51,986 bases of DNA, from the NCBI GenBank assembly GCA_012838995.1, contig DUOD01000020.1, positions 1 through 51,986 on the forward strand, given 5' to 3'. The DNA is from Clostridiales bacterium. GTDB lineage: Bacteria > Bacillota > Clostridia > DUOD01. Shown in pieces: positions 15,400 through 33,470 of this stretch (position 1 is its first letter; every line of letters starts with the position of its first letter). A program made the position numbers and the translations under genes. The notes beneath the pieces were generated by a model. The model searched no databases. It was not told the DNA's origin and saw nothing but the letters and a program-made list of their open reading frames with translations.

Positions 15400-16602
15400 A
15401 TGAAAAGGTTATTTTTTTATATAATAATGCTTTTTATTTTATTTCATCCTACGGGACATTATACCGCTGCAGCCCATGAACAACCCTATGATAGGGACAA
15501 AATTTTTGATGAATTCAGCTTTGGTATACAAAGACAAGTAGAGCAGCTGGATATAAACGAAGTAAATAAATATTTACAGGATATAAATAGACAATACGGC
15601 ACTGCCTTTAGCAGCTCGGCAAAGGAGATGATAAAAAATATTACCCAAGGCAATTTTTCCTTTAATATAAAGGACCTACTGGGAAACTTGTTTAAATTTT
15701 TTTTTAAAGAAGTGGTTATAAACCTAAATTTAATGGGAAAAATCATAATCCTGGCCATCATATGTGGTTTGCTTAAAAATTTGCAAAGTTCTTTTTCAAA
15801 AAGCGGTATTTCAGAAATAACCTACTATTGTTGTTATATCGTAATAATGGTCATATTAGTACAAAGTTTTACGTCCATATTGAACATGAGTAAAACAACA
15901 ATAGACAACATGGTAGTTTTTATGCAAGCCATATTCCCCATACTGATTACAATGCTTATTTCCATGGGCGGTATTGCAAGTTCTTCGTTGTTCCAACCGA
16001 TAATGGGGCTTTTGGTAAGCGGAGTAGGCACATTTTTAAAGGACCTGGTTTTCCCATTAATATTTTTTACAGCCATCCTTTTTTTGATAAATAATGTTTC
16101 ACCCCATATTCAGATATCCAAACTTGCAAACCTTATGAAAAATATATGCATATGGATCCTAGGAATTATCTTTACAATATTTGTAGGTGTCTTGGCAGTA
16201 CAAGGAATAGCAGCTTCCGCCTTTGACGGGGTTTCCATAAGAACAGCCAAGTTTGCCATAGATACTTTTATACCGGTGGTGGGTAGTATGTTGTCAGAAT
16301 CCATTGATACTATCATAGGCTGCTCATTACTGGTGAAAAACGCCACAGGTTTAATCGGATTGATAATTTTAGCCTTTATTTGTTTATTTCCCATAATGAA
16401 GATACTGGCCATCGTATTTATTTACAAACTGGTTGCGGCTTTGATACAGCCCATTTCCGATGAGCGACTGGTCAACTGCTTGAATGATATAAGCAATGTT
16501 GTTGTACTGCTTTTTATTACCCTGGCCGCCGTAGCCTTTATGTTCTTTATCACAATTTCACTGATAATAGGAGCGGGCAATATTACGGTTATGATGAGGT
16601 AA
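15400..16602 (+). CDS. spoIIIAE: Stage III sporulation protein AE
   Basis: A 400-residue polytopic membrane protein with an N-terminal signal-peptide-like segment (residues 1-25), an extracytoplasmic region of about 70 residues, and roughly seven or eight hydrophobic helices to the C-terminus. The conserved motifs QAIFPILITMLISMGG, FDGVSIRTAKFAIDTFIPVVGS and QPISDERLVNCLNDIS fit SpoIIIAE. It is the largest integral membrane component of the SpoIIIA complex. It follows spoIIIAD by 8 bases and nearly touches spoIIIAF. Confidence 0.96.
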   Translation: MKRLFFYIIMLFILFHPTGHYTAAAHEQPYDRDKIFDEFSFGIQRQVEQLDINEVNKYLQDINRQYGTAFSSSAKEMIKNITQGNFSFNIKDLLGNLFKFFFKEVVINLNLMGKIIILAIICGLLKNLQSSFSKSGISEITYYCCYIVIMVILVQSFTSILNMSKTTIDNMVVFMQAIFPILITMLISMGGIASSSLFQPIMGLLVSGVGTFLKDLVFPLIFFTAILFLINNVSPHIQISKLANLMKNICIWILGIIFTIFVGVLAVQGIAASAFDGVSIRTAKFAIDTFIPVVGSMLSESIDTIIGCSLLVKNATGLIGLIILAFICLFPIMKILAIVFIYKLVAALIQPISDERLVNCLNDISNVVVLLFITLAAVAFMFFITISLIIGAGNITVMMR

Positions 16603-16603
16603 T

Positions 16604-17218
16604 ATGATGTTGGAAAACATAAAGTCATGGATTATAGATATCGTTATAATTGTTTGCTTTTCTGTCATCATTGACATGGTACTACCTAAAGGAAACATTA
16701 AAAAGTACGCAAAATTTATTATGGGCATAATAATCATCGTAGTTATTATTTCACCCATAATAGACATATTCAAGCAGCCCATGGACTTAGACGAACATTT
16801 GGATACAATCACCCATCGGCTGGATATCGAGGAAATTAAGTTTAATGCAAAAAATTACGAACAACAACAAATGGAAAATGCCGTGGAATTATTTAAGAGA
16901 CGGCTGCATAACAATATACAACACACCATAGAACGAAATCATGACGTAAAAGTGGTCGGTATAGATTTAGATATGGTAGAGGATCCTAAAGATAAATTCT
17001 TTGGAGAAATAAAAGAAATAAGGATTACCATAGATGAATCTTCCCCAAAGGCGGCCGTGGAAACTGTTTCAAAAGTAGAGATAACATCGGATAAAAACAA
17101 GCCGGCAAAGGACGAAACAGCCTATACTACCACTATCGAAAAAGAAATATTGGAAACTATGTATAAAGTTTACGGAATTGATGGAAACAAAATAAAAATT
17201 ACACAGGAAAACCTATAG
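16604..17218 (+). CDS. spoIIIAF: Stage III sporulation protein AF
   Basis: A 204-residue protein with two N-terminal transmembrane helices (about 8-26 and 35-55) followed by a soluble domain predicted to lie in the intermembrane space. The segment LPKGNIKKYAKFIMGIIIIVVIISPI between the helices is the conserved SpoIIIAF signature. The C-terminal domain is expected to have a ring-building-motif-like fold, with MYKVYGID near the end. ATG at 16607 is an equally possible start. The gene is part of the contiguous spoIIIA operon. Confidence 0.93.
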   Translation: MMLENIKSWIIDIVIIVCFSVIIDMVLPKGNIKKYAKFIMGIIIIVVIISPIIDIFKQPMDLDEHLDTITHRLDIEEIKFNAKNYEQQQMENAVELFKRRLHNNIQHTIERNHDVKVVGIDLDMVEDPKDKFFGEIKEIRITIDESSPKAAVETVSKVEITSDKNKPAKDETAYTTTIEKEILETMYKVYGIDGNKIKITQENL

Positions 17219-17229
17219 GGGGTGATACT

Positions 17230-17826
17230 TTGAATCTTTTTGAATCCTTTAAATTTATAAAACAGAAAATGAAAAATATAAAAAATATTGAAATCTATTT
17301 GGCAATAATCATGCTAGCGGTAATTGCTTCTATATTCTTATCTACCCTTACACCAAAGGAAAGGATAGATAATACGACAAAAACACCACAGGATAATGGG
17401 GATGAACCGATGGATGAAAGCTTAGAATTCAATCTCCATAAGGATATCGAAACTCAACTTACAAAAATTCTTTCATCCATAAAAGGAGCGGGCAGGGTTT
17501 CTGTCATGGTAACCCTGGAAACGGATATGGAACTAATAACGGCTTCGGATATAAACAAGTCAAACACCATAACAGACGAAGATGACGGTCAGGGTGGGAA
17601 AAGGAGGATAACCGAAGAAAATATATCTGAAACCACCGTAACTATCACAGAAAATGGCAATACAAAGCCCATTATCCTTAAAAAAAATTACCCATCCATT
17701 AAGGGCGTTGTTGTGGTTGCTGAAGGCGCAATCATCCCGGAGATAAAAAGGGATTTGTCCGAAGCGGTACAAACGGTTTTAGGAATACCCGCCAATAGGG
17801 TAAAGGTATATGTTATGAAAGATTAA
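17230..17826 (+). CDS. spoIIIAG: Stage III sporulation protein AG
   Basis: A 198-residue protein starting at TTG behind AGGGGGTGATAC. One membrane helix (about 21-38) is followed by a soluble domain with the sequence IKGAGRVSVMVTLETDMEL, then a variable loop, and the conserved C-terminal part VVVVAEGA, VQTVLGIPANRVKVY. In Bacillus subtilis the homologue forms large rings in the intermembrane space through a ring-building motif. The domain boundaries visible here fit that model. Confidence 0.94.
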   Translation: MNLFESFKFIKQKMKNIKNIEIYLAIIMLAVIASIFLSTLTPKERIDNTTKTPQDNGDEPMDESLEFNLHKDIETQLTKILSSIKGAGRVSVMVTLETDMELITASDINKSNTITDEDDGQGGKRRITEENISETTVTITENGNTKPIILKKNYPSIKGVVVVAEGAIIPEIKRDLSEAVQTVLGIPANRVKVYVMKD

Positions 17827-17852
17827 TGGATATAAAGAGGGGGTAAATCCAT

Positions 17853-18443
17853 ATGTTTATAAAAAGGAAAACAATGATAATAGTTGCCTTGGTGCTTATG
17901 ATTGGCATCGCGGGTTACCTTAATTACAGTTATAACAGAAGTGTCCAAACCGTGAAACAAGGAGGAGAAGATATTGATTTTTCTTCTGAAGCAGCTGAAG
18001 AACCGGATGCTTTAGACGATGTTATCGTTGAAGATAAAAAAACGGAAGAAGCTGATGAAAGAGAAGTGATATCACAACAACAAACTACATCAAGTTTTTT
18101 TATCGATTACCGGCTTGAAAGGGATAAGGTAAGAAGTGAGCAGATTGAGTATTTGAAGGAAGTAATCGATAATAAAGATACTGTACAGGAGATTAGAAAC
18201 GAAGCCCAAAGGGAGATGGTGGCCATCGTAAAGATGATGGAAAAAGAATTGGCGGTGGAAAATCTGTTAAAGGCAAAGGGTTTCAGGGATGCTTTGATTT
18301 TTATCCACGAGAATTCCATCAATGTTATAGTAGATGAAGATAATCTCACTCCGGAGCAGGTTGCACAAATACAAGATATAGTGATAAGAGAAACCGGTGA
18401 GAAACTTGAAAATATAAAGATCATGGAAGACAAACACAATTAG
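17853..18443 (+). CDS. spoIIIAH: Stage III sporulation protein AH
   Basis: A 196-residue protein with one N-terminal membrane helix (about 7-24), an acidic low-complexity linker (about 40-75), a helical region with RDKVRSEQIEYLKEVI, and a YscJ/FliF-like ring-building domain at the C-terminus. SpoIIIAH spans the outer forespore side and binds forespore SpoIIQ; no spoIIQ gene is in the window. The N-terminal acidic linker is variable in the family. It is the last gene of the operon and is followed by a promoter for the next cluster. Confidence 0.94.
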   Translation: MFIKRKTMIIVALVLMIGIAGYLNYSYNRSVQTVKQGGEDIDFSSEAAEEPDALDDVIVEDKKTEEADEREVISQQQTTSSFFIDYRLERDKVRSEQIEYLKEVIDNKDTVQEIRNEAQREMVAIVKMMEKELAVENLLKAKGFRDALIFIHENSINVIVDEDNLTPEQVAQIQDIVIRETGEKLENIKIMEDKHN

Positions 18444-18449
18444 ATATAA

Positions 18450-18478
18450 TTGTAAATCAAAAGACAATTTGTTATAAT
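18450..18478 (+). promoter_or_regulatory. Sigma-A-type promoter before the Asp23/AmaP cluster
   Basis: TTGTAA at 18450-18455, 17-base spacer, TATAAT at 18473-18478, with an extended -10 TG one base before it. It lies in the 60-base gap between spoIIIAH and the Asp23 gene. Its two hexamers, spacing and extended element are the same as in the promoter before OLE RNA at 23956. Confidence 0.7.
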
Positions 18479-18503
18479 AAAATAAAAAGTGGAGGTGTAA
18501 CCC

Positions 18504-18902
18504 TTGAGTGAAGGAATAACAAAAGCAATTGACCAAGGCGGCAAGATTTCCTTTGAAGATGAAGTCATTGCAATAATAGCCGGAATCGCCGCAACAGAAG
18601 TAGAAGGCGTAGCCGCGATGAGCGGTGGAATAGTAGGAGGAATAGCGGAAAAACTTGGCATGAAAAACCTTTCCAAGGGCGTCAAGGTAGAAGTGGGAGA
18701 AAAGGAAACTGCCGTTGACTTATATATTATTGTTGAATACGGTTGCAGGATACCTGAGGTAGCCTGGAACATACAGGAAAATGTGAAAAAAGCCGTGGAA
18801 TCCATGACGGGCTTAAAGGTAGTTGAAGTAAACATCCATGTCCAAGGAATTAACTTTGGGAAGGAAACAAAGGAAGTAAGGGATCAGCAAAGAGTAAAAT
18901 AA
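18504..18902 (+). CDS. Asp23/Gls24 family envelope stress response protein
   Basis: A 132-residue Asp23/Gls24 protein starting at TTG behind GTGGAGGTG. Typical motifs include FEDEVIAIIAGIAATEVEGVAAMSGG at the N-terminus, the KGVKVEVGEKETAVDLYIIVEYG strand pair, and GLKVVEVNIHVQGI at the end. Family members are abundant membrane-associated proteins, recruited by AmaP and linked to cell-envelope stress. AmaP and DUF2273 genes follow, completing the usual trio. This position between spoIIIAH and nusB is standard in Clostridia. Confidence 0.93.
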   Translation: MSEGITKAIDQGGKISFEDEVIAIIAGIAATEVEGVAAMSGGIVGGIAEKLGMKNLSKGVKVEVGEKETAVDLYIIVEYGCRIPEVAWNIQENVKKAVESMTGLKVVEVNIHVQGINFGKETKEVRDQQRVK

Positions 18903-18911
18903 TATGGTAAG

Positions 18912-18936
18912 ACCCTCTGACGTTTTTTCAGAGGGT
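18912..18936 (+). terminator. Hairpin after the Asp23 gene, possible attenuator
   Basis: ACCCTCTGA pairs with TCAGAGGGT across a CGTTTTT loop (9 base pairs). The following sequence TAATTTAAG is only modestly T-rich, so it may be a leaky terminator that lowers expression of amaP relative to the Asp23 gene. Confidence 0.6.
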
Positions 18937-18965
18937 TAATTTAAGTTTACGAAGGAGGAATTACA

Positions 18966-19511
18966 ATGAAGTTGGTGGACAGATTTTTATTGGCTATCCT
19001 AGCACTGATTGCAATAATAGCATCCGGTTTTATGATTTCTTTAGCCTCAGGACTTATAAGCCATGAAAGGGTAACAGAATTTTTGACTTTTAACGCCAAT
19101 TCCGTGTCCTTTATCACAACTTCCATAATTATCAGCATTGTGATAATATTGATAAGTTTAAGGTTATTGCTAATGAAAAAAAGGGGATCTTTGGATAAAA
19201 GCACCCTGTTAAAGAACAGCGAACTGGGAATGATAAACGTTTCCTTAAACACCATTAACAGCCTTACACAAAAATCCGTAAAAACCCACCAAGGGGTAAA
19301 AGACGCGAAGAGTTTAATAATTTCTGACGAAGACGGAGTCAGAATATCTTTAAAACTTTTAGTAATGCCCGATGTTATCATACCTGAACTTACTGAGGAC
19401 ATACAAAGAAATGTCAAAGAATATGTTGAAAAATACTCAGGCATATTCGTCAAGGAGGTAAGAATTTTTATCGATAATATTTTCTCAATCGGTAAATCAC
19501 GGGTTGAATAG
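18966..19511 (+). CDS. amaP: Alkaline shock response membrane anchor protein AmaP
   Basis: A 181-residue protein with two N-terminal transmembrane helices (about 8-30 and 48-68), followed by a cytoplasmic Asp23-like domain with GVRISLKLLVMPDVIIPEL and QRNVKEYVEKYSGIFVKEV. AmaP tethers Asp23 to the membrane. The ribosome binding site is GAAGGAGGA. It sits between its partner Asp23 and the DUF2273 gene. The gene is intact and of usual length. Confidence 0.9.
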   Translation: MKLVDRFLLAILALIAIIASGFMISLASGLISHERVTEFLTFNANSVSFITTSIIISIVIILISLRLLLMKKRGSLDKSTLLKNSELGMINVSLNTINSLTQKSVKTHQGVKDAKSLIISDEDGVRISLKLLVMPDVIIPELTEDIQRNVKEYVEKYSGIFVKEVRIFIDNIFSIGKSRVE

Positions 19512-20192: not shown

Positions 20193-21134
20193 ATGAGCTA
20201 TGTATTAGGAATAGATACCAGTTGCTACACCACCTCCATAGCCGTCATCGATACACAGAAAAACATAATACATGATAAACGTATAATGCTAAAGGTTAAA
20301 CGGGGCGAGAGGGGGCTACAGCAGTCTCAGGCCTATTACCAGCATAATGACAATCTTGTACAGCTCATAGACGATATAAAGCCTATAATAAAAAATATCA
20401 AAAACATTGCCGTTTCTACAAAACCGCGGCCGAAGAAGGATTCTTTCATGCCGGTTTTTAAGTCAGGGTATAATACGGCTAAGATACTGTCAACTGCGTT
20501 GAATGTACCCCTTGTGAAAACCAGTCACCAGGAAGGTCATATAATGGCGGGCCTGTATTCTGCGAAGGGCCCTAAATGTCATTCCTTTTTATGTGTCCAT
20601 ATATCAGGCGGTACCAGCGATATACTCCATGTAACCCGGACTGCCGGACAAGGCTTTGTTATTAACACCGTCGGTGGTACCCAAGACCTGAACGCCGGTC
20701 AGTTTATAGATAGGGTAGGGGTGGCACTGGGTATGGATTTTCCCTGCGGCAAAGAATTGGAAGGGCTGGCCGGTAAAGGAACAAAGGGTAGTATTTTGCC
20801 TTCTTCGGTACAGGGCTGCCATATGAGTTTCTCCGGCCCTGAATCCATGTCCCAAAGATTGATATGCCAGGGCGTATCAAAAGAGGATTTGGCGTTATCG
20901 GTTTTCCTATGCATTGCCCGATCCCTGGTAAAAGTTTTAAATAATTGCTACCAAGGTAAGATAAAATTTGATAATATATTATTTGTAGGTGGAGTAGCGT
21001 CTAATACATACATAAAAGAATATCTCAAGACCAAACTTAGTAACAGGTTTGGATTGTATTTCGCTCAACCCCGCTTTTCGGTGGATAATGCAGTGGGTGT
21101 TGCATTATTAGGTAAAACTTGGGAAAGGCAATAG
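20193..21134 (+). CDS. TsaD/Kae1-family paralogue (divergent)
   Basis: A 313-residue protein of the Kae1/TsaD (ASKHA ATPase) family. The N-terminal LGIDTSCYTTSIAVI corresponds to the phosphate-binding start, HQEGHIMAGLYSA to the metal-binding HxxxH motif, HISGGTSDIL and NTVGGTQDLNAGQFIDRVGVALG to nucleotide-binding loops, and VGGVASNTYIKEYL to the C-terminal site. It differs from true TsaD: it is shorter and has YT where TsaD has an acidic pair (TSCD[DE]T). It is therefore likely a paralogue of unknown role, and the essential t6A-forming TsaD is expected elsewhere. It starts 4 bases after nusB and is 4 bases before xseA. Confidence 0.8.
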   Translation: MSYVLGIDTSCYTTSIAVIDTQKNIIHDKRIMLKVKRGERGLQQSQAYYQHNDNLVQLIDDIKPIIKNIKNIAVSTKPRPKKDSFMPVFKSGYNTAKILSTALNVPLVKTSHQEGHIMAGLYSAKGPKCHSFLCVHISGGTSDILHVTRTAGQGFVINTVGGTQDLNAGQFIDRVGVALGMDFPCGKELEGLAGKGTKGSILPSSVQGCHMSFSGPESMSQRLICQGVSKEDLALSVFLCIARSLVKVLNNCYQGKIKFDNILFVGGVASNTYIKEYLKTKLSNRFGLYFAQPRFSVDNAVGVALLGKTWERQ

Positions 21135-22601: not shown

Positions 22602-23492
22602 ATGGACATAGAGAATTTATTAAAGGAAGAAGCCAAAAGGGTGAACTCATTTTTAAAGGATATATTAAAGCAGTATATTACATATCCCCACATACTTTAT
22701 AACTCCATGGAATACAGCCTATTTGCCGGAGGTAAACGTCTAAGGCCCATCCTGCTTTTATGGACTTTTGATATGTTTGATGATAATCGCCAACCGGCTT
22801 ATTACTATGCAGCTGCTCTGGAATTCATTCATACCTATTCCCTAATCCACGACGATCTTCCGTCCATGGACAACGATGATTTCAGAAGGGGAAAACCCAC
22901 AAATCATAAGGTGTTTGGGGAAGCAGTTGCCATACTTACAGGCGATGCCTTGCTTAATACGGCCTATGAAATAATGGTAAATGCGTCCTTAAAATACAGC
23001 GACAGTCTAAAAAAACATCTAGCGGCCCAGCATGAGATAGCAAGGGCATCGGGCGCCTCGGGCATCATTGGGGGCCAAATCGTTGATATACTGTCAGAAA
23101 ACAAGGAAGGCGACTCGGATACATTAAAATATATCCATACCCATAAAACCGGTACCTTAATTAAGGCTTCGGTCAGAGCAGGGGCAATACTTGGAGGTTG
23201 TGACGAAAAATCATTGTCTGTTTTAGACAAGTATGCTGAATATCTGGGTTTAGCTTTTCAGATAATAGATGATATATTGGATGTGGTAGGTGATACTGAA
23301 AAACTTGGCAAGACCGTGGGCAAAGACGCCAAAACAAAAAAACTAACCTATCCGTCATTATTCGGCTTGCAGGCAGCTAGGGACAAGGCTGTCCAACTTA
23401 CCGAAAAATCAATTGATCAGTTGAAATATTTCGGTGATACAGCAAATGTCTTAGTAGCCCTAACAGAATATCTTTGTAAAAGGGAATTTTAA
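22602..23492 (+). CDS. ispA: Polyprenyl (geranyl/farnesyl) diphosphate synthase
   Basis: A 296-residue trans-prenyl transferase that condenses isopentenyl diphosphate onto allylic primers. The first aspartate-rich motif is in IHDDLPSMDNDDFRRGKPT (near residue 84) and the second in FQIIDDILDVVGD (near 225). GGKRLRP supplies pyrophosphate-binding residues. Product length (C15 or C20) cannot be settled by eye. It is part of the isoprenoid module that includes dxs downstream, interrupted by the YuiD gene, OLE RNA and oapA. Confidence 0.94.
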   Translation: MDIENLLKEEAKRVNSFLKDILKQYITYPHILYNSMEYSLFAGGKRLRPILLLWTFDMFDDNRQPAYYYAAALEFIHTYSLIHDDLPSMDNDDFRRGKPTNHKVFGEAVAILTGDALLNTAYEIMVNASLKYSDSLKKHLAAQHEIARASGASGIIGGQIVDILSENKEGDSDTLKYIHTHKTGTLIKASVRAGAILGGCDEKSLSVLDKYAEYLGLAFQIIDDILDVVGDTEKLGKTVGKDAKTKKLTYPSLFGLQAARDKAVQLTEKSIDQLKYFGDTANVLVALTEYLCKREF

Positions 23493-23506: not shown

Positions 23507-23950
23507 TTGGGGGAATTAAAGGGACTTTTTAATAACCGTATACTAATGGTTTCTGTACTGGCATGGTTTATTGCACAAGCGCTCAAAGTTATACTAACCC
23601 TGTTAAAAGAAAAAAAAGTGGATTTTACCAGGCTTATAGGTTCCGGTGGGATGCCCAGTTCCCATTCTGCCTTTGTTGTTTCCCTTGCTACCTCTGTGGG
23701 AATAACCCACGGATGGGATTCAACTTACTTTGCTATTTCAGCCATCTTCACCTTAATCGTTATGTATGATGCTGCAGGCGTAAGGAGAGCGACCGGCAAA
23801 CAGGCAATGATACTTAATAAGATTATAAGCGAGCTTCATCGACATAAAGAGATAAAACATGAGAGGCTGAAAGAATTAATCGGCCATACACCCATTGAAG
23901 TCTTTGCAGGTGCTTTATTGGGCATATTAATATCTTACTTGTTTATTTAG
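23507..23950 (+). CDS. Divergent PAP2 / YuiD family membrane protein
   Basis: A 147-residue membrane protein of the DUF212 (divergent PAP2) family. The phosphatase-like motif GSGGMPSSHSAFVVSLATSVG and RRATGKQAMILNKI...LKELIGHTPIEVFAGALLG are characteristic, with about four hydrophobic helices. The start is TTG behind AAGGAGGA. A phosphatase acting on lipid-linked or prenyl phosphates is an attractive guess given ispA next to it, but the activity is not established. OLE RNA follows immediately. Confidence 0.88.
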   Translation: MGELKGLFNNRILMVSVLAWFIAQALKVILTLLKEKKVDFTRLIGSGGMPSSHSAFVVSLATSVGITHGWDSTYFAISAIFTLIVMYDAAGVRRATGKQAMILNKIISELHRHKEIKHERLKELIGHTPIEVFAGALLGILISYLFI

Positions 23951-23955
23951 TGTTA

Positions 23956-23984
23956 TTGTAATAAAAAAATTGCTATGCTATAAT
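23956..23984 (+). promoter_or_regulatory. Promoter of OLE RNA
   Basis: TTGTAA at 23956-23961, 17-base spacer, TATAAT at 23979-23984, with extended -10 TGC immediately before it. It begins 5 bases after the stop of the YuiD-type gene and points at the long noncoding stretch, predicting a 5' end near 23990-23993. Confidence 0.75.
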
Positions 23985-23992
23985 ATCAATCG

Positions 23993-24600
23993 ATAGTCCA
24001 GCATATAAAATCGGTGGTGCAGTATTCTAGTCAGCACTGTCAATTTCGAAGGCGGGCCTAAAAATCCGTCAAAGGGCACAACGATGAAGTTTCTGGTGCT
24101 GGCCGCTGACGCCCAGTCGGGGGCTGGTGCTGGGAGTTAAGGAAGAAGGGCGATCCACAATGGCATGTGGGCGTTGACCCAGCTTCCGCGGAGACCTAAG
24201 CAGGTGGTGGTTTACCCGCTACTTCTTAGGATTAAACCTGTATCGCGGCGATAACAAGCTGTGTACAGTGTAGCCTGCCTTGAGTGGGGTGGGCGGATAA
24301 CGGACCAAACTGTTAGTACCAGAAGGCCAATGGTTTAACAGTTATTGCCGCTTGAAACCCATTCTGCAAAAGAGGCTAGAAATTGATAAGGCTGTCGAGG
24401 AAAGCTCCTAGACTGCATCCCAAGTATATCAGGGATTAAAGTGTGGACTAAGTGGTAATCTAGTCTTGTTGTTGGCGACACAACAAAGGCGAATTTAAAA
24501 GGGAACTGCTAATCCGGCGACGGGTTAGTATTCGCCTGGGAAAACCTACTAGACCTTAAGCCGCAAAGTTTACCTGATATGCTACCACCGATTATACTTT
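23993..24600 (+). ncRNA. ole: OLE RNA (ornate, large, extremophilic)
   Basis: About 650 bases between the YuiD gene and oapA hold no credible ORF but are rich in G+C-containing helices. A terminal helix joins the ends: AATCGGTGGT at 24009-24018 with ACCACCGATT at 24584-24593. Local hairpins include GGCGAAT/ATTCGCC (24488-24494 with 24530-24536) enclosing CTAATCC/GGGTTAG, TTGTTG/CAACAA just upstream of it, and GACTA/TAGTC around 24447-24465. Size (about 600 nt), position just before oapA, and the isoprenoid/xse/dxs neighbourhood match OLE RNA, an abundant membrane-associated RNA in some extremophilic and anaerobic Firmicutes. Ends are estimated. The family call rests on size, structure and synteny, not on a covariance search. 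Confidence 0.88.
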
Positions 24601-24619
24601 TATTTAGGGAGTGCCGGTT

Positions 24620-25201
24620 TTGAAAAGGCGTGAAAAAAATAATGCAGCCAAAAGGCTGCAAAGGACCAAGTGGGCATTGAAGATAACAATACTCACTTTT
24701 TTAATAAGTGTTTTATTAAGCTTATTTTCAGAAACCACATTGAAACAAAGTAATATATTATCCGCCTTGCTTATTTTATTTTTTATTATTACCATTGGTA
24801 TAGTATTTGACATCATCGGTGTCGCCGTTACGGCAAGCAGTGAAATACCCTTCCTATCGATGGCCTCCAGAAAGATTCCGGGGGCAAAACAATCCTTGGC
24901 ACTTATAAAGAATGCACATCTGGTATCAAGCATATGCAATGACGTAGTGGGTGATATTTGCGGTATCATCAGCGGTGCAGCCGGAGCAGTAATAAGTATC
25001 AGAATTATAACCGATAACTTATCTATAGATAGCGCCCTGATAGGCATACTAATAAGCAGTATAATTGCTTCTGCAACGGTAGGAGGCAAAGCCTTTAGCA
25101 AATCCTTTGCAATGAATAATAAAACGGCAATTGTGCATAAAGTAGGATATATAATATATTTATTGGGCAATGTCTTTAGAGGGAAGCTTAAGAGGAAGTG
25201 A
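24620..25201 (+). CDS. oapA: OLE-associated membrane protein OapA
   Basis: A 193-residue basic membrane protein encoded directly after OLE RNA. The N-terminus is lysine/arginine-rich (residues 2-20), suited to RNA binding. Four hydrophobic segments lie at roughly 20-37, 47-72, 108-130 and 137-153. An aspartate pair (about 108 and 112, DVVGD) sits at the start of the third. The C-terminus is again basic. OapA binds OLE RNA and brings it to the membrane in Bacillus halodurans. TTG 24620 is preferred: GGGAG is 8 bases upstream, whereas GTG 24611 would sit on top of the ribosome binding site. The stop is just before dxs. Confidence 0.87.
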   Translation: MKRREKNNAAKRLQRTKWALKITILTFLISVLLSLFSETTLKQSNILSALLILFFIITIGIVFDIIGVAVTASSEIPFLSMASRKIPGAKQSLALIKNAHLVSSICNDVVGDICGIISGAAGAVISIRIITDNLSIDSALIGILISSIIASATVGGKAFSKSFAMNNKTAIVHKVGYIIYLLGNVFRGKLKRK

Positions 25202-25206
25202 CAAAC

Positions 25207-27087
25207 ATGTATATAGACACCATAACATCACCAGCAGACATAAAAAATAAAACCATAGACGAACTAAACCAGTTAGCCGACGAAATCAGGCAGCTCCTCA
25301 TCGAAGTGATCTCGCAAAATGGAGGCCATTTGGCGTCAAATTTAGGTGTGGTAGAATTAACACTGGCCCTTCATTATGTCTTCGATACCCCCAGGGATAA
25401 AATTATTTGGGATGTGGGTCACCAAACCTATGTTCATAAGATTCTAACCTACAGAAAGGATTTATTCCCCTCAATTAGAAAATATAAGGGTTTAAGCGGT
25501 TTTCCCAAGATATCTGAGAGTAGCCATGATTTTTTTAATACCGGTCACAGCAGTACTTCAATATCAGCTGCTTTGGGCTTTGCCCGAGCGCGAGATTTAA
25601 TGGGCGAAGATTATTCGGTATTGGCCGTTATAGGCGATGGAGCCTTAACGGGGGGAATGGCCTTGGAAGGCTTAAACGACGCCGGCCATAGCCCTACAAA
25701 TCTCATAGTAATCCTTAACGATAACCAAATGTCCATTGCCAATAACGTTGGGAGTTTGTCCACCTATTTATCCAAGATTAGATCGGATCCTAAATACCAC
25801 AAACTAAAAAGGGATATTGAACCTTTATTAAATAAAATTCCCTTTATTGGCAAGGGGATTTATCATGCTGTTAAACGTTTAAAAAATACTATAAAATATC
25901 TTTTTGTTCCCGGCATTATATTTGAAGAATTGGGATTTAAATATATCGGGCCTGTAAACGGCCATGATATATTCTCCCTCATTTCCATGCTGGATAGGGC
26001 ACGATCAGTCAATGGTCCCGTATTGATACATGTGGTTACAAGTAAAGGAAAAGGATATAAACATGCAGAATTAAATCCTGAAAAATTCCATGCGGTAGCA
26101 CCCTTTAATATAAAGACCGGTGAAGAATTATACAAAGGCAGGGGCATCACCTATTCCCAAGTCTTTGGAAATACCATGTTGCGCCTTGCCAAAGAAAATG
26201 AAAAGATTATAGCAATTACGGCGGCAATGCCCCATGGCACAGGTTTGTATGAATTTTCCAGATTATATCCTGAAAGATTTTTTGATGTGGGCATTGCGGA
26301 ACAACACGCCGTTACCTTTGCCGCCGGCCTTGCTGCAAACGGTTATAAACCGGTCTTTGCCGTTTACTCCACTTTTCTCCAAAGGGCCTATGATCAGATA
26401 TTACATGATGTGTGCATTCAAAATCTACCGGTAGTCTTTGCCATTGACAGATGTGGGTTGGTAGGTCAGGACGGCGAAACCCACCACGGAATTTTCGACA
26501 TCAGTTATTTAAGTCACATTCCCAACATGACCATTTTAAGCCCTTCAGACGGTAGCGAGCTGGCCGCCATGTTAAGGTATGCCGTCGACCATCCCGGTCC
26601 CGTTGCCATTAGATACCCGAAGGGTGCAGTTTGCAATATTTACAAGGATAATACCATTACCATAGAACATGGCAAATGGGATACCGTCAGACAGGGCAAA
26701 ACCTGTTGTATAATGGCCACCGGCAAAATGGTCGACTTTGCGCTCAAAAGTTGTGAAATATTAGAAGGTATGGGAATTTATTGTTGTCTGATTAATTGCA
26801 GGTTTATAAAGCCCCTGGACATAGATAAAATTAGGCAATGTGTTAAGGACTTTAGCAAGCTCGTAATTATAGAGGATAATACCGCAATTGGCGGCCTGGG
26901 CAGCACTATAATACAAGAACTTGCAAAGAACGGATACAAGACCTTAGATGTTAAACATATAGCCTTCCCCGATAGTTTTGTCCCCCACGGTGAAATTGAT
27001 GAGTTGCTTAAAGTATATAATATGGATGTAAAAGGCTTGGTAGATCAGATTGCCGCCTTTGTAAACAAACCGGAGAAGAAAAAATGA
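25207..27087 (+). CDS. dxs: 1-deoxy-D-xylulose-5-phosphate synthase
   Basis: A 626-residue thiamine diphosphate enzyme that joins pyruvate and glyceraldehyde 3-phosphate, first step of the MEP isoprenoid pathway. Motifs are GHQTYVHKILTYR, GHSSTSISAALG, the ThDP/Mg motif GDGALTGGMALEGLNDAG with NDNQMSIANNVG, and in the second half DVGIAEQHAVTFAAGLA and DRCGLVGQDGETHHG. ATG 25207 has AAGAGGAAG 8 bases upstream; a GTG at 25198 overlaps the oapA stop. With ispA upstream it brackets the OLE/oapA pair. It overlaps tlyA by 4 bases. Confidence 0.96.
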   Translation: MYIDTITSPADIKNKTIDELNQLADEIRQLLIEVISQNGGHLASNLGVVELTLALHYVFDTPRDKIIWDVGHQTYVHKILTYRKDLFPSIRKYKGLSGFPKISESSHDFFNTGHSSTSISAALGFARARDLMGEDYSVLAVIGDGALTGGMALEGLNDAGHSPTNLIVILNDNQMSIANNVGSLSTYLSKIRSDPKYHKLKRDIEPLLNKIPFIGKGIYHAVKRLKNTIKYLFVPGIIFEELGFKYIGPVNGHDIFSLISMLDRARSVNGPVLIHVVTSKGKGYKHAELNPEKFHAVAPFNIKTGEELYKGRGITYSQVFGNTMLRLAKENEKIIAITAAMPHGTGLYEFSRLYPERFFDVGIAEQHAVTFAAGLAANGYKPVFAVYSTFLQRAYDQILHDVCIQNLPVVFAIDRCGLVGQDGETHHGIFDISYLSHIPNMTILSPSDGSELAAMLRYAVDHPGPVAIRYPKGAVCNIYKDNTITIEHGKWDTVRQGKTCCIMATGKMVDFALKSCEILEGMGIYCCLINCRFIKPLDIDKIRQCVKDFSKLVIIEDNTAIGGLGSTIIQELAKNGYKTLDVKHIAFPDSFVPHGEIDELLKVYNMDVKGLVDQIAAFVNKPEKKK

Positions 27088-28852: not shown

Positions 28853-28867
28853 TACCAGGAGGTGCTT

Positions 28868-29317
28868 ATGAAACTAGCAAGACACGCCAAAATACTGGAG
28901 ATAATCGAAAAATATGAGATCGAAACCCAAGAAGAGCTTGCGGAACATTTGAGAAAAGCAAATATAAACACCACACAAGCCACTATTTCGAGGGATATAA
29001 AAGAACTAAGGCTAATCAAGGTGCTTTCCAAAAACGGAGTGTACAAATATACAACTTTAAACAGCAACGATATGCAAATACCCCAAAAATTAAAAAACGT
29101 ATTTGCCCAATCCATCCTGAACATTAACCACGCCAATAACTTGATAGTTATAAAGACCATAGAGGGTGCCGCCCAAACCGGGGCAGCGGCCATTGACACA
29201 TTGAAATGTAAGGAAATAATAGGAACAATAGCAGGGGACGACACCATATTGGTGGTCGTTCAGGATAACGAAAGTGTAGAGGCCGTAATAGATAATTTTA
29301 AGAAACTCATGGGTTAA
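28868..29317 (+). CDS. argR: Arginine repressor ArgR/AhrC
   Basis: A 149-residue regulator with an N-terminal winged helix (IEKYEIETQEELAEHLRKANINTTQATISRDIKELRLIKV) and a C-terminal oligomerisation and arginine-binding domain with GAAQTGAAAIDTLKCKEIIGTIAGDDTILVV. It represses arginine synthesis and activates catabolism in response to arginine. ATG 28868 is chosen because AGGAGGTG lies directly before it; GTG 28862 would sit in that site. No arginine gene is near; the position before recN is standard. Confidence 0.95.
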   Translation: MKLARHAKILEIIEKYEIETQEELAEHLRKANINTTQATISRDIKELRLIKVLSKNGVYKYTTLNSNDMQIPQKLKNVFAQSILNINHANNLIVIKTIEGAAQTGAAAIDTLKCKEIIGTIAGDDTILVVVQDNESVEAVIDNFKKLMG

Positions 29318-31187: not shown

Positions 31188-32468
31188 TTGCACAGAACTA
31201 AAAAAACAATTGGAATTATACTGTCTATCATAATTATTTTTTTAAATTACAACCCTTTTACCCAGCGGTTATTAGCAATTCCCTCTGAACTGAAGATATT
31301 TGAGGGTGAACAACAGTTTCTTGACTTGAAAGTACCTTTTACTTTTGAGATTGAAACCGACAGGATTGGCGTTATAAAGCTTAACGGCAATAGCTTAAGC
31401 AAAATCCAGCATGATTTTAGACAACCCTTTTTTTTACAATCCTTGACCAGAGGTAATGTCAATTTACAGTTTAAACTTTTTGGTTTACTGCCAATTAAAA
31501 ACATGCTGGTTAGAGTGGTGCCAAAAATAGATGTAATACCCGGCGGTCACGCTATAGGTGTTGCCCTTTATACTAAGGGAGCGTTGGTGGTAGGTATCTC
31601 AGACATAAAAAGCAGTGATGGCAATATTTACAGCCCGGCCCAAGAAGCCGGTCTGATACCCGGTGATATTATAGAAAAGGTTAATGATGTTAACATAAAA
31701 AACGCTGAACATTTGTCCATGTTGATCAACGATAGCCAATATTCACCTTTGCAACTGACGGTAAGAAGAAATGATAAACTAATAAACATTTCTATCAAGG
31801 CAGTCAAGGATCATCAAGATGATAGGAAAAAACTGGGGATATGGGTTAGGGACAGTACCGCCGGCGTCGGGACCCTATCCTTTTATCTGCCCAAGAATAA
31901 AATGTATGGTGCATTGGGACATGCTATAACAGATATTGATACCAGATCGTTATTGAGGGTGGGCAACGGGGAAATAATGGAATCTAAAATCATTGACATA
32001 CGACAGGGTGAAAAGGGCAAACCCGGCGAAATTAGGGCAATGTTTTTGGAAAAGGAAAATATAATCGGAAATATCAAAAAAAATACCGTATACGGTATTT
32101 ACGGAGAGATATATAAAACCATAACAAATCCTATATATAAAAAGCCCATAGAAATTTGTTTACAACATCAAGTAAAGGAAGGCCCGGCTACTATTTTGTG
32201 CACTGTAGATGATAGGGGTATAAGGGAATACGATATAGAGATTATAAAAATAAATAATCAATTAAAACCCGATATGAAAAGTATGATAATAAAAATAACG
32301 GATAAGGAACTGCTATCAAAAACCGGGGGTATTGTTCAGGGTATGAGCGGAAGTCCTATTATTCAAAATAATAAGTTGGTGGGCGTGGTAACCCATGTTT
32401 TTGTAAATGATCCAACAAAGGGTTATGGTATTTTTATAGAATGGATGTTAAATGAAATGGAAAAATAA
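31188..32468 (+). CDS. spoIVB: SpoIVB serine peptidase
   Basis: A 426-residue S55-family serine peptidase made in the forespore; it signals across to activate the SpoIVFB-dependent processing of pro-sigma-K. It has an N-terminal signal/anchor helix (about 8-24), a PDZ domain (about 145-205: GLIPGDIIEKVNDVNIKNAEHL) and the protease domain. Active-site candidates are His in GALGHAITDID and Ser in GMSGSPIIQNNKLVGVVTHVF. The TTG start is taken from the coding frame and has a moderate AGGAG site. The gene precedes spo0A, as in most spore formers. Sigma-F/G control is expected but no clear site was identified in 31062-31187. Confidence 0.94.
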   Translation: MHRTKKTIGIILSIIIIFLNYNPFTQRLLAIPSELKIFEGEQQFLDLKVPFTFEIETDRIGVIKLNGNSLSKIQHDFRQPFFLQSLTRGNVNLQFKLFGLLPIKNMLVRVVPKIDVIPGGHAIGVALYTKGALVVGISDIKSSDGNIYSPAQEAGLIPGDIIEKVNDVNIKNAEHLSMLINDSQYSPLQLTVRRNDKLINISIKAVKDHQDDRKKLGIWVRDSTAGVGTLSFYLPKNKMYGALGHAITDIDTRSLLRVGNGEIMESKIIDIRQGEKGKPGEIRAMFLEKENIIGNIKKNTVYGIYGEIYKTITNPIYKKPIEICLQHQVKEGPATILCTVDDRGIREYDIEIIKINNQLKPDMKSMIIKITDKELLSKTGGIVQGMSGSPIIQNNKLVGVVTHVFVNDPTKGYGIFIEWMLNEMEK

Positions 32469-32605
32469 GTCATATAAAAACATACTTCCTTAAAGAAAGC
32501 TATGTAATTTATTTACGGGATAAACCCTCATTTTTCAGCAAGTTGCCGGGTAAGACAGGCGTTTTAGAATTTTACCTTATTTTTTTTATTTTTTCTGATA
32601 ATGTA

Positions 32606-32632
32606 GAAGGAAAATTTAAACATTTGTCGAAT
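32606..32632 (+). promoter_or_regulatory. Sigma-H promoter of spo0A overlapped by a Spo0A box
   Basis: GAAGGAAAA at 32606-32614 fits the sigma-H -35 pattern RNAGGAWWW at every position. After 11 bases, GTCGAAT at 32626-32632 fits the -10 pattern RNNGAAT. The heptamer TGTCGAA at 32625-32631, the consensus Spo0A-binding box, lies exactly over the -10. The site is about 50 bases before spo0A. This suggests sigma-H-driven expression with direct autoregulation by Spo0A; overlap with the -10 suggests repression at high Spo0A~P (inference). Confidence 0.72.
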
Positions 32633-32684
32633 TGTAAAGTGATGTATCAACTGGTAAATTTTATGTCTAGGGGGTAGAAACTAA

Positions 32685-33470
32685 ATGATGAAAAAAATCA
32701 AGGTATTAATTGCAGATGACAACAAGGACTTTTGTGACATTTTAAACGAATATTTAAACAGGCAGGAAAATATCGAGGTGGTTGGTATTGCCAATGACGG
32801 CATTGAAGCGGTAGAGCTAATTACCAATACATCACCGGACGTCATAGTACTGGATATTATAATGCCCCATCTCGATGGATTGGGAGTACTGGAAAAAATC
32901 AACTCATTAACTTTGGAAAACTATCCTAAGGTTATCGTTCTTTCTGCAGTTGGCCAGGATAAAATAACCCAAAAGGCCATAGCCCTTGGAGCAGATTACT
33001 ACGTTGTAAAGCCCTTCGATATGGAAATTTTCGTAAAAAGAATTAGGGAATTGATGACAAAGAGGGAACCCAACTCCACCAGAAGAATACACGTGGTGGC
33101 AAAGGCCAAAGGTACTACATCCATTGAAAGCGAAATAACCAATATAATCCACGAAATAGGTGTGCCCGCCCACATTAAAGGATACCAGTACCTACGGGAA
33201 GCAATATTGATGGTGGTAAATAACATTGAATTATTAAGTGCCATTACAAAAGAACTTTATCCGGGCATAGCCACAAAATTCAATACCACACCCAGTCGAG
33301 TGGAAAGGGCAATACGCCATGCCATAGAAGTAGCATGGAGCAGGGGTAGGGTAGACACAATAAACAAGCTTTTCGGTTACACGGTGCACGATAAAAAAGG
33401 AAAACCCACCAATGGAGAATTTATTGCTATGGTTGCTGATAAACTTAGATTGGAAACAAAAATCAGCTAA
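32685..33470 (+). CDS. spo0A: Sporulation transcription factor Spo0A
   Basis: The 261-residue response regulator that commits cells to sporulation. The receiver domain has IADDNKDFC (acid pair), phosphoacceptor aspartate in [14 protein letters not shown] (near residue 56), threonine/serine VLSAVGQ and lysine VVKPFDM. The C-terminal DNA-binding domain contains [24 protein letters not shown] and the recognition helix region [23 protein letters not shown] 32688 is an alternative start. A sigma-H/Spo0A-box promoter precedes it and a strong terminator follows, so it forms a single-gene unit. Confidence 0.98.

Follow-up and report, generated by a model that had tools for sequence, protein, structure and literature searches.

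OLE is a large bacterial RNA that is located in the cell membrane, and few of the conserved bacterial RNAs whose biochemical function is still unsettled exceed it in size. In systems described elsewhere, OapA and OLE RNA bind 2:1 at P2/P4a. Some 8,585 non-redundant OLE sequences are known (PMC12286853), and OLE elsewhere is an abundant, separately processed RNA (PMC12265935). OLE forms dimers that have been visualized by cryo-EM and is located at the membrane through OapA; in H. halodurans, OapA, OapB and OapC are essential, and cells that lose OLE become sensitive to cold, ethanol, Mg2+ and poor carbon sources (PMC12286853, PMC12265935, PMC9723947, PMC12054373, PMC11332333, PMC10898510). The P3 stem has been proposed to cross the membrane (PMC12265935). 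OapA is distantly related to CNNM proteins and is distinguished by a DxxxD motif that is absent from CNNM domains (PMC11332333).

The stretch of DNA analyzed here (the window; 51,986 nucleotides, contig DUOD01000020.1 of a Clostridiales bacterium) almost certainly carries ole and oapA as an intact pair that encodes the OLE ribonucleoprotein. The initial annotation had assigned approximately 600 nt, lying without a coding open reading frame between yuiD (which ends at 23950) and oapA, to a complete OLE RNA, with a 5′ limit at 23993. The covariance model bears this out: the region matches Rfam family RF01071 at 536.5 bits (E 1.3e-154, cut-off 50), all model positions are aligned end to end without truncation, and the annotated limit is no more than 5 nt from the Rfam start. 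OLE is the sole Rfam family in the window and is present as one copy in the host genome (1.92 Mb, 98% complete). Because P7, P8 and P9 are retained and the genome also contains OapB and OapC, the RNA belongs to the full-length type, which it resembles in model length, pairing, conserved loops and kink-turn strands, as well as in having OapA directly downstream and xseAB-ispA-dxs-tlyA-nadK-argR as neighbors. It differs from the RF01071 consensus in a P7 hairpin loop that is 8 nt shorter and in several mismatches in P9, both inside the family range. The window OLE is thus a complete, ordinary member of the known family and not a new kind of RNA. Features of the locus are collected in Table 1.

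Table 1. Positions of the RNA elements and genes of the ole-oapA locus in the window.
Feature	Position	Strand	Basis or remark
ispA, farnesyl diphosphate synthase	22602-23492	+	NF045485, above cut-off
yuiD (DUF212, divergent PAP2), upstream neighbor	23507-23950	+	Domain match
Candidate ole sigma-A promoter TTGTAA-17-TATAAT, TG-extended	23956-23984	+	10/12 matches, well placed
OLE RNA, full length	23998-24604	+	RF01071 model 1-616
P1, 5′ strand	24009-24018	+	Pairs with 24584-24593; both-sided changes in 9/10 pairs (27 sequences)
P3.1/P3, 5′ strand	24032-24047 (CAGC 24032-24035, UCAAUUUC 24040-24047)	+	Covariation
P4 hairpin, A-rich loop CCUAAAAA	24051-24070	+	A-A dimer contact in cryo-EM structures (PMC12286853)
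J4a/5 half of kink turn, GAUGAAG	24083-24089	+	OapC site by literature; near-invariant (PMC9723947, PMC12286853)
P5 loop, GCCCA	24111-24115	+	P6-loop partner in RNA dimer (PMC12265935)
P6 loop, AUGGCA	24160-24165	+	P5-loop partner (PMC12265935)
J6/7 half of kink turn, GGAGA	24190-24194	+	Near-invariant (PMC12286853)
P9 loop palindrome, GGCC	24325-24328	+	Symmetric kissing loop (PMC12286853)
P3/P3.1, 3′ strand	24379-24394	+	Covariation
3′ hairpins with GGCGAC loops	24466-24537	+	RF01071 match, pairing
P1, 3′ strand	24584-24593	+	Pairs with 24009-24018
oapA ribosome-binding site, AGGGAG	24606-24611	+	Sequence
oapA, 193 aa from TTG	24620-25201	+	DxxxD = D108/D112
dxs, downstream neighbor of oapA	25198-27087	+	TIGR00204
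argR	28862-29317	+	NF001680

The host represents an isolated lineage, since none of the 60 nearest genomes searched is related to it more closely than at the level of class. OLE is present in 27 of these 60 genomes, that of the window counted in, and the window RNA was aligned in one orientation with the OLE RNAs of the 26 other species. The pairs counted were those of the Rfam structure and of the terminal helix, 164 in all, and the window forms standard pairs at 154 of them; across the 27 sequences, 88.8% of cells are paired, against 73.0 +/- 0.4% after shuffling, and both-sided changes occur in 124 pairs, against 85.7 +/- 3.9. No shuffle reached the observed value of either measure, and sliding the partner columns by 1-3 positions reduced the paired cells to 39-47%. 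Approximately 100 columns are invariant among these class-level sequences.

Two helices absent from the Rfam structure line, P1 and P3.1/P3, together show both-sided changes in 20 of 22 pairs. The 10-bp terminal helix claimed in the initial annotation is P1, a perfect complement in the window (AAUCGGUGGU/ACCACCGAUU) with compensatory changes in the 27 related RNAs; its inner six pairs are strongly conserved and roughly half of the relatives lack the outer four, which leaves a conserved core of about six pairs. The second is a stem of 4 + 8 bp that fits the described P3.1/P3, with both-sided changes in 11 of 12 pairs. In the distal P9 stem, pairing is low (42% over the 27 sequences); loss of this stem in the window was considered and set aside, the low value being ascribed to a variable arm that was misaligned. 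In the OLE RNAs of two relatives (L018:1501-2068 and L031:1501-2039), no sequence is aligned to the distal P9 arm that carries the GGCC kissing loop, and this contact may therefore be dispensable in some lineages.

All the loops that make dimer contacts in the published structures, namely the A-rich loop of P4, the P5/P6 pair and the palindromic loop of P9, are present in the window RNA. To judge from its sequence, the RNA also retains both strands of the kink turn for OapC, J4a/5 and J6/7, and the 3′ hairpins with GGCGAC loops should contain the P12.2/P13 site of OapB (for its role, see PMC9723947).

No Pfam or NCBIfam model matches the 193-residue product of the downstream gene above its cut-off, and its orthology with OapA was therefore established through relatives, motif and fold. 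In each of the 26 OLE-bearing relatives, a homolog (E 1e-35 to 1e-56) is encoded on the OLE strand immediately 3′ of the RNA. In the alignment of 27 OapA sequences, D67, G70, D111, G114, D115, S121, G122, G159, K160 and K164 are invariant (numbering of a 196-aa sequence, in which D111 and D115 correspond to D108 and D112 of the window product), and the diagnostic DxxxD motif, D111-x3-D115, is accordingly found in 27/27 sequences. An OapA mutant of H. halodurans at D100/D104 has been described (PMC9723947). The best start codon is the TTG 8 nt behind GGGAG; the only other in-frame start upstream, GTG at 24611, overlaps the ribosome site.

The initial annotation had named this product as OapA and described it as a four-helix membrane protein, and the AlphaFold model (mean pLDDT 88.5) agrees in having four long helices and a predicted CNNM-like transmembrane fold. 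The best six PDB matches found with Foldseek are all transmembrane structures of CNNM, CorB or CorC (7m1t, 7m1u, 7cff, 7cfg), with probabilities of 0.98-1.00, modest E values (0.01-0.5) and TM scores of 0.43-0.55; the matches below these are noise. The CNNM model PF01595 scores 13.6 bits on OapA, below its cut-off of 28.4, in line with the remote relation between the two families. A comparison of the OapA profile with the MpfA sequence of the host gave no convincing match (probability 4.5%), probably owing to the distant relationship and to the use of one sequence as the target. The predicted fold of OapA matches that of the transmembrane domain of MpfA, CorB and CorC, but OapA differs from these proteins in having four transmembrane helices instead of three, and the DxxxD motif; it carries neither a CBS nor a CorC domain and falls outside the MpfA/CNNM class.

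Genes for the other partners lie elsewhere in the host genome. OapB is a 97-aa KOW-type protein encoded between map and infA (L032:8108-8401), whose best PDB match is 7k9b, "OLE-associated protein B" (E 5.5e-10). OapC is an 83-aa YbxF protein (E 1.2e-14) encoded between rpoC and rpsL (L035:2595-2846), and bS21 is encoded at G000:C63:108352-108510 (84.4 bits). ArgR, whose gene lies in the window itself, is listed among the proteins that bind OLE on the strength of unpublished work (PMC12265935). One MpfA-type transporter with CNNM, CBS and CorC domains (L037:467-1717) coexists with OLE and OapA, and OapA is therefore not the only CNNM-like protein of this host, which is within the range of none or one MpfA per OLE-bearing genome (PMC11332333).

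The gene order proposed for the region, xseAB-ispA-yuiD-RNA-oapA-dxs-tlyA-nadK-argR-recN, holds, with family models for every gene except oapA and recN, the latter being named by sequence and synteny; recN is followed by spoIVB and spo0A. Among 106 OapA loci (80 from named genomes and 26 from relatives), many of which end early at the flank or contig edge, dxs is the first recognized gene downstream in 91; upstream, the first recognized gene is ispA in 26 loci and yuiD in another 26. By these counts the placement of ole-oapA in the window is typical. Sporulation genes (spoIIIAE, spoIIIAH, spoIVB, spo0A) and an Asp23-family, yqhY-like gene flank the cluster at 15400-19508 and 31188-33467, and such flanks are known from other ole neighborhoods. 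Just upstream of xseA, 20193-21134 encodes a TsaD-like protein, also found beside 5/106 ole loci, that scores far under the curated TsaD cut-offs (146.6 vs 207.8 and 130.2 vs 296.1 bits) and is perhaps a divergent TsaD paralog.

Eleven OapA loci without the conserved OLE motif were examined as candidates for OapA without OLE. Nine of them have OLE by the covariance model, in eight cases running off the end of the contig or locus, and were rejected as such candidates. For one of the other two (L083), the upstream sequence is too short; the other (L103) has no OLE beside oapA, and OLE occurs elsewhere in the genome. In this genome, the Bacilli MAG Lapin-027 bin63, oapA (L103:3944-4546) is preceded by an MBL-fold gene and has no adjoining OLE; a full-length OLE (L120:1501-2109; 411 bits) is found on a different contig, flanked by a recG-like gene and a glycosyltransferase gene. 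Apparently ole and oapA, which as a rule occur together, are unlinked here, unless the genome contains a binning error. Full-length OLE RNAs (460 and 485 bits) together with OapA were also found in two MAGs labeled Actinomycetota (L082 and L114), reflecting either transfer or mislabeled or contaminated bins.

How such a complex might work is suggested mainly by published work, from which dimerization, membrane site and a role in metal movement are carried over to this host. The model that we favor, and to which we give an even chance or slightly better, is that of an OLE dimer by which an OapA divalent-metal transporter is both anchored and gated, the RNA replacing the CBS and CorC domains of MpfA. 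The RNA family, its pairing and loops, the identity and predicted fold of OapA and the partner genes on which this model builds are those found above. The ole RNA would be transcribed from its own promoter, with the operon, or both, and would then be cut off the oapA message. The promoter candidate upstream of ole is weak, because such sites are no commoner in the region than in shuffled sequence. Two OLE RNAs would dimerize via the P4, P5/P6 and P9 loops; OapA, as a four-helix CNNM-like membrane protein, would anchor the RNA beside P3, which may itself cross the membrane; and OapB, OapC and bS21 would bind and shape OLE. The complex would regulate movement of Mg2+ or Mn2+ and, through it, stress tolerance, OLE performing the role that the CBS and CorC domains have in MpfA. 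Two observations weigh against a metal function of this kind: a true MpfA-type protein with CNNM, CBS and CorC domains is also present in the host, and the resemblance of OapA to such proteins is modest in the Foldseek matches and unconvincing in the profile comparison with the host MpfA.

It is less probable, although worth weighing, that OLE acts as a ribozyme, with c-di-AMP synthesis as one activity suggested by the Breaker laboratory (PMC11332333), and that OapA merely localizes it to the membrane. The size of the RNA, its ornate structure and its many invariant columns seem more than a scaffold needs; however, the OLE literature cited here contains no catalytic activity, and the predicted fold of OapA and the phenotypes indicate metal transport (PMC11332333). 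We regard as similarly unlikely a role for OLE mainly as a membrane-tethered sponge or sensor for bS21, OapB, OapC and ArgR that tunes translation under stress, with metal effects being secondary. The genes for bS21, OapB and OapC are in the host genome, argR is part of the same gene run, and H. halodurans needs the bS21 site to tolerate cold and ethanol (PMC12054373), but OapB and OapC are absent from many OLE-bearing species and OapA almost never is (PMC11332333), and the Mg2+ and Mn2+ phenotypes (PMC10898510) also argue against this role. Finally, it is very improbable that the region functions as a long, structured 5′ leader controlling oapA-dxs in cis and not as a trans-acting RNA, as the 15 nt between the 3′ end of OLE and the oapA start, in which the promoter and terminator scan found no terminator, would allow, because OLE elsewhere is abundant and separately processed (PMC12265935), the partner-protein genes are far away, and in one genome ole lies on another contig than oapA, an arrangement in which the RNA would not be expected to act on oapA in cis.

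If Lapin-027 bin63 is not misbinned, the ribonucleoprotein would not need co-transcription of its components and the two genes would be separable; in the window, OLE might physically span the membrane through P3, whose pairing is supported by covariation. We put this forward only tentatively, as something short of probable. The window copy alone leaves existing knowledge of OLE unchanged. It adds a complete gene set for the ribonucleoprotein (ole, oapA, oapB, oapC, bS21 and argR) from a lineage that has no relative below class level in the collection, and, for covariation studies of the unresolved 3′ domain of OLE, one further divergent sequence.
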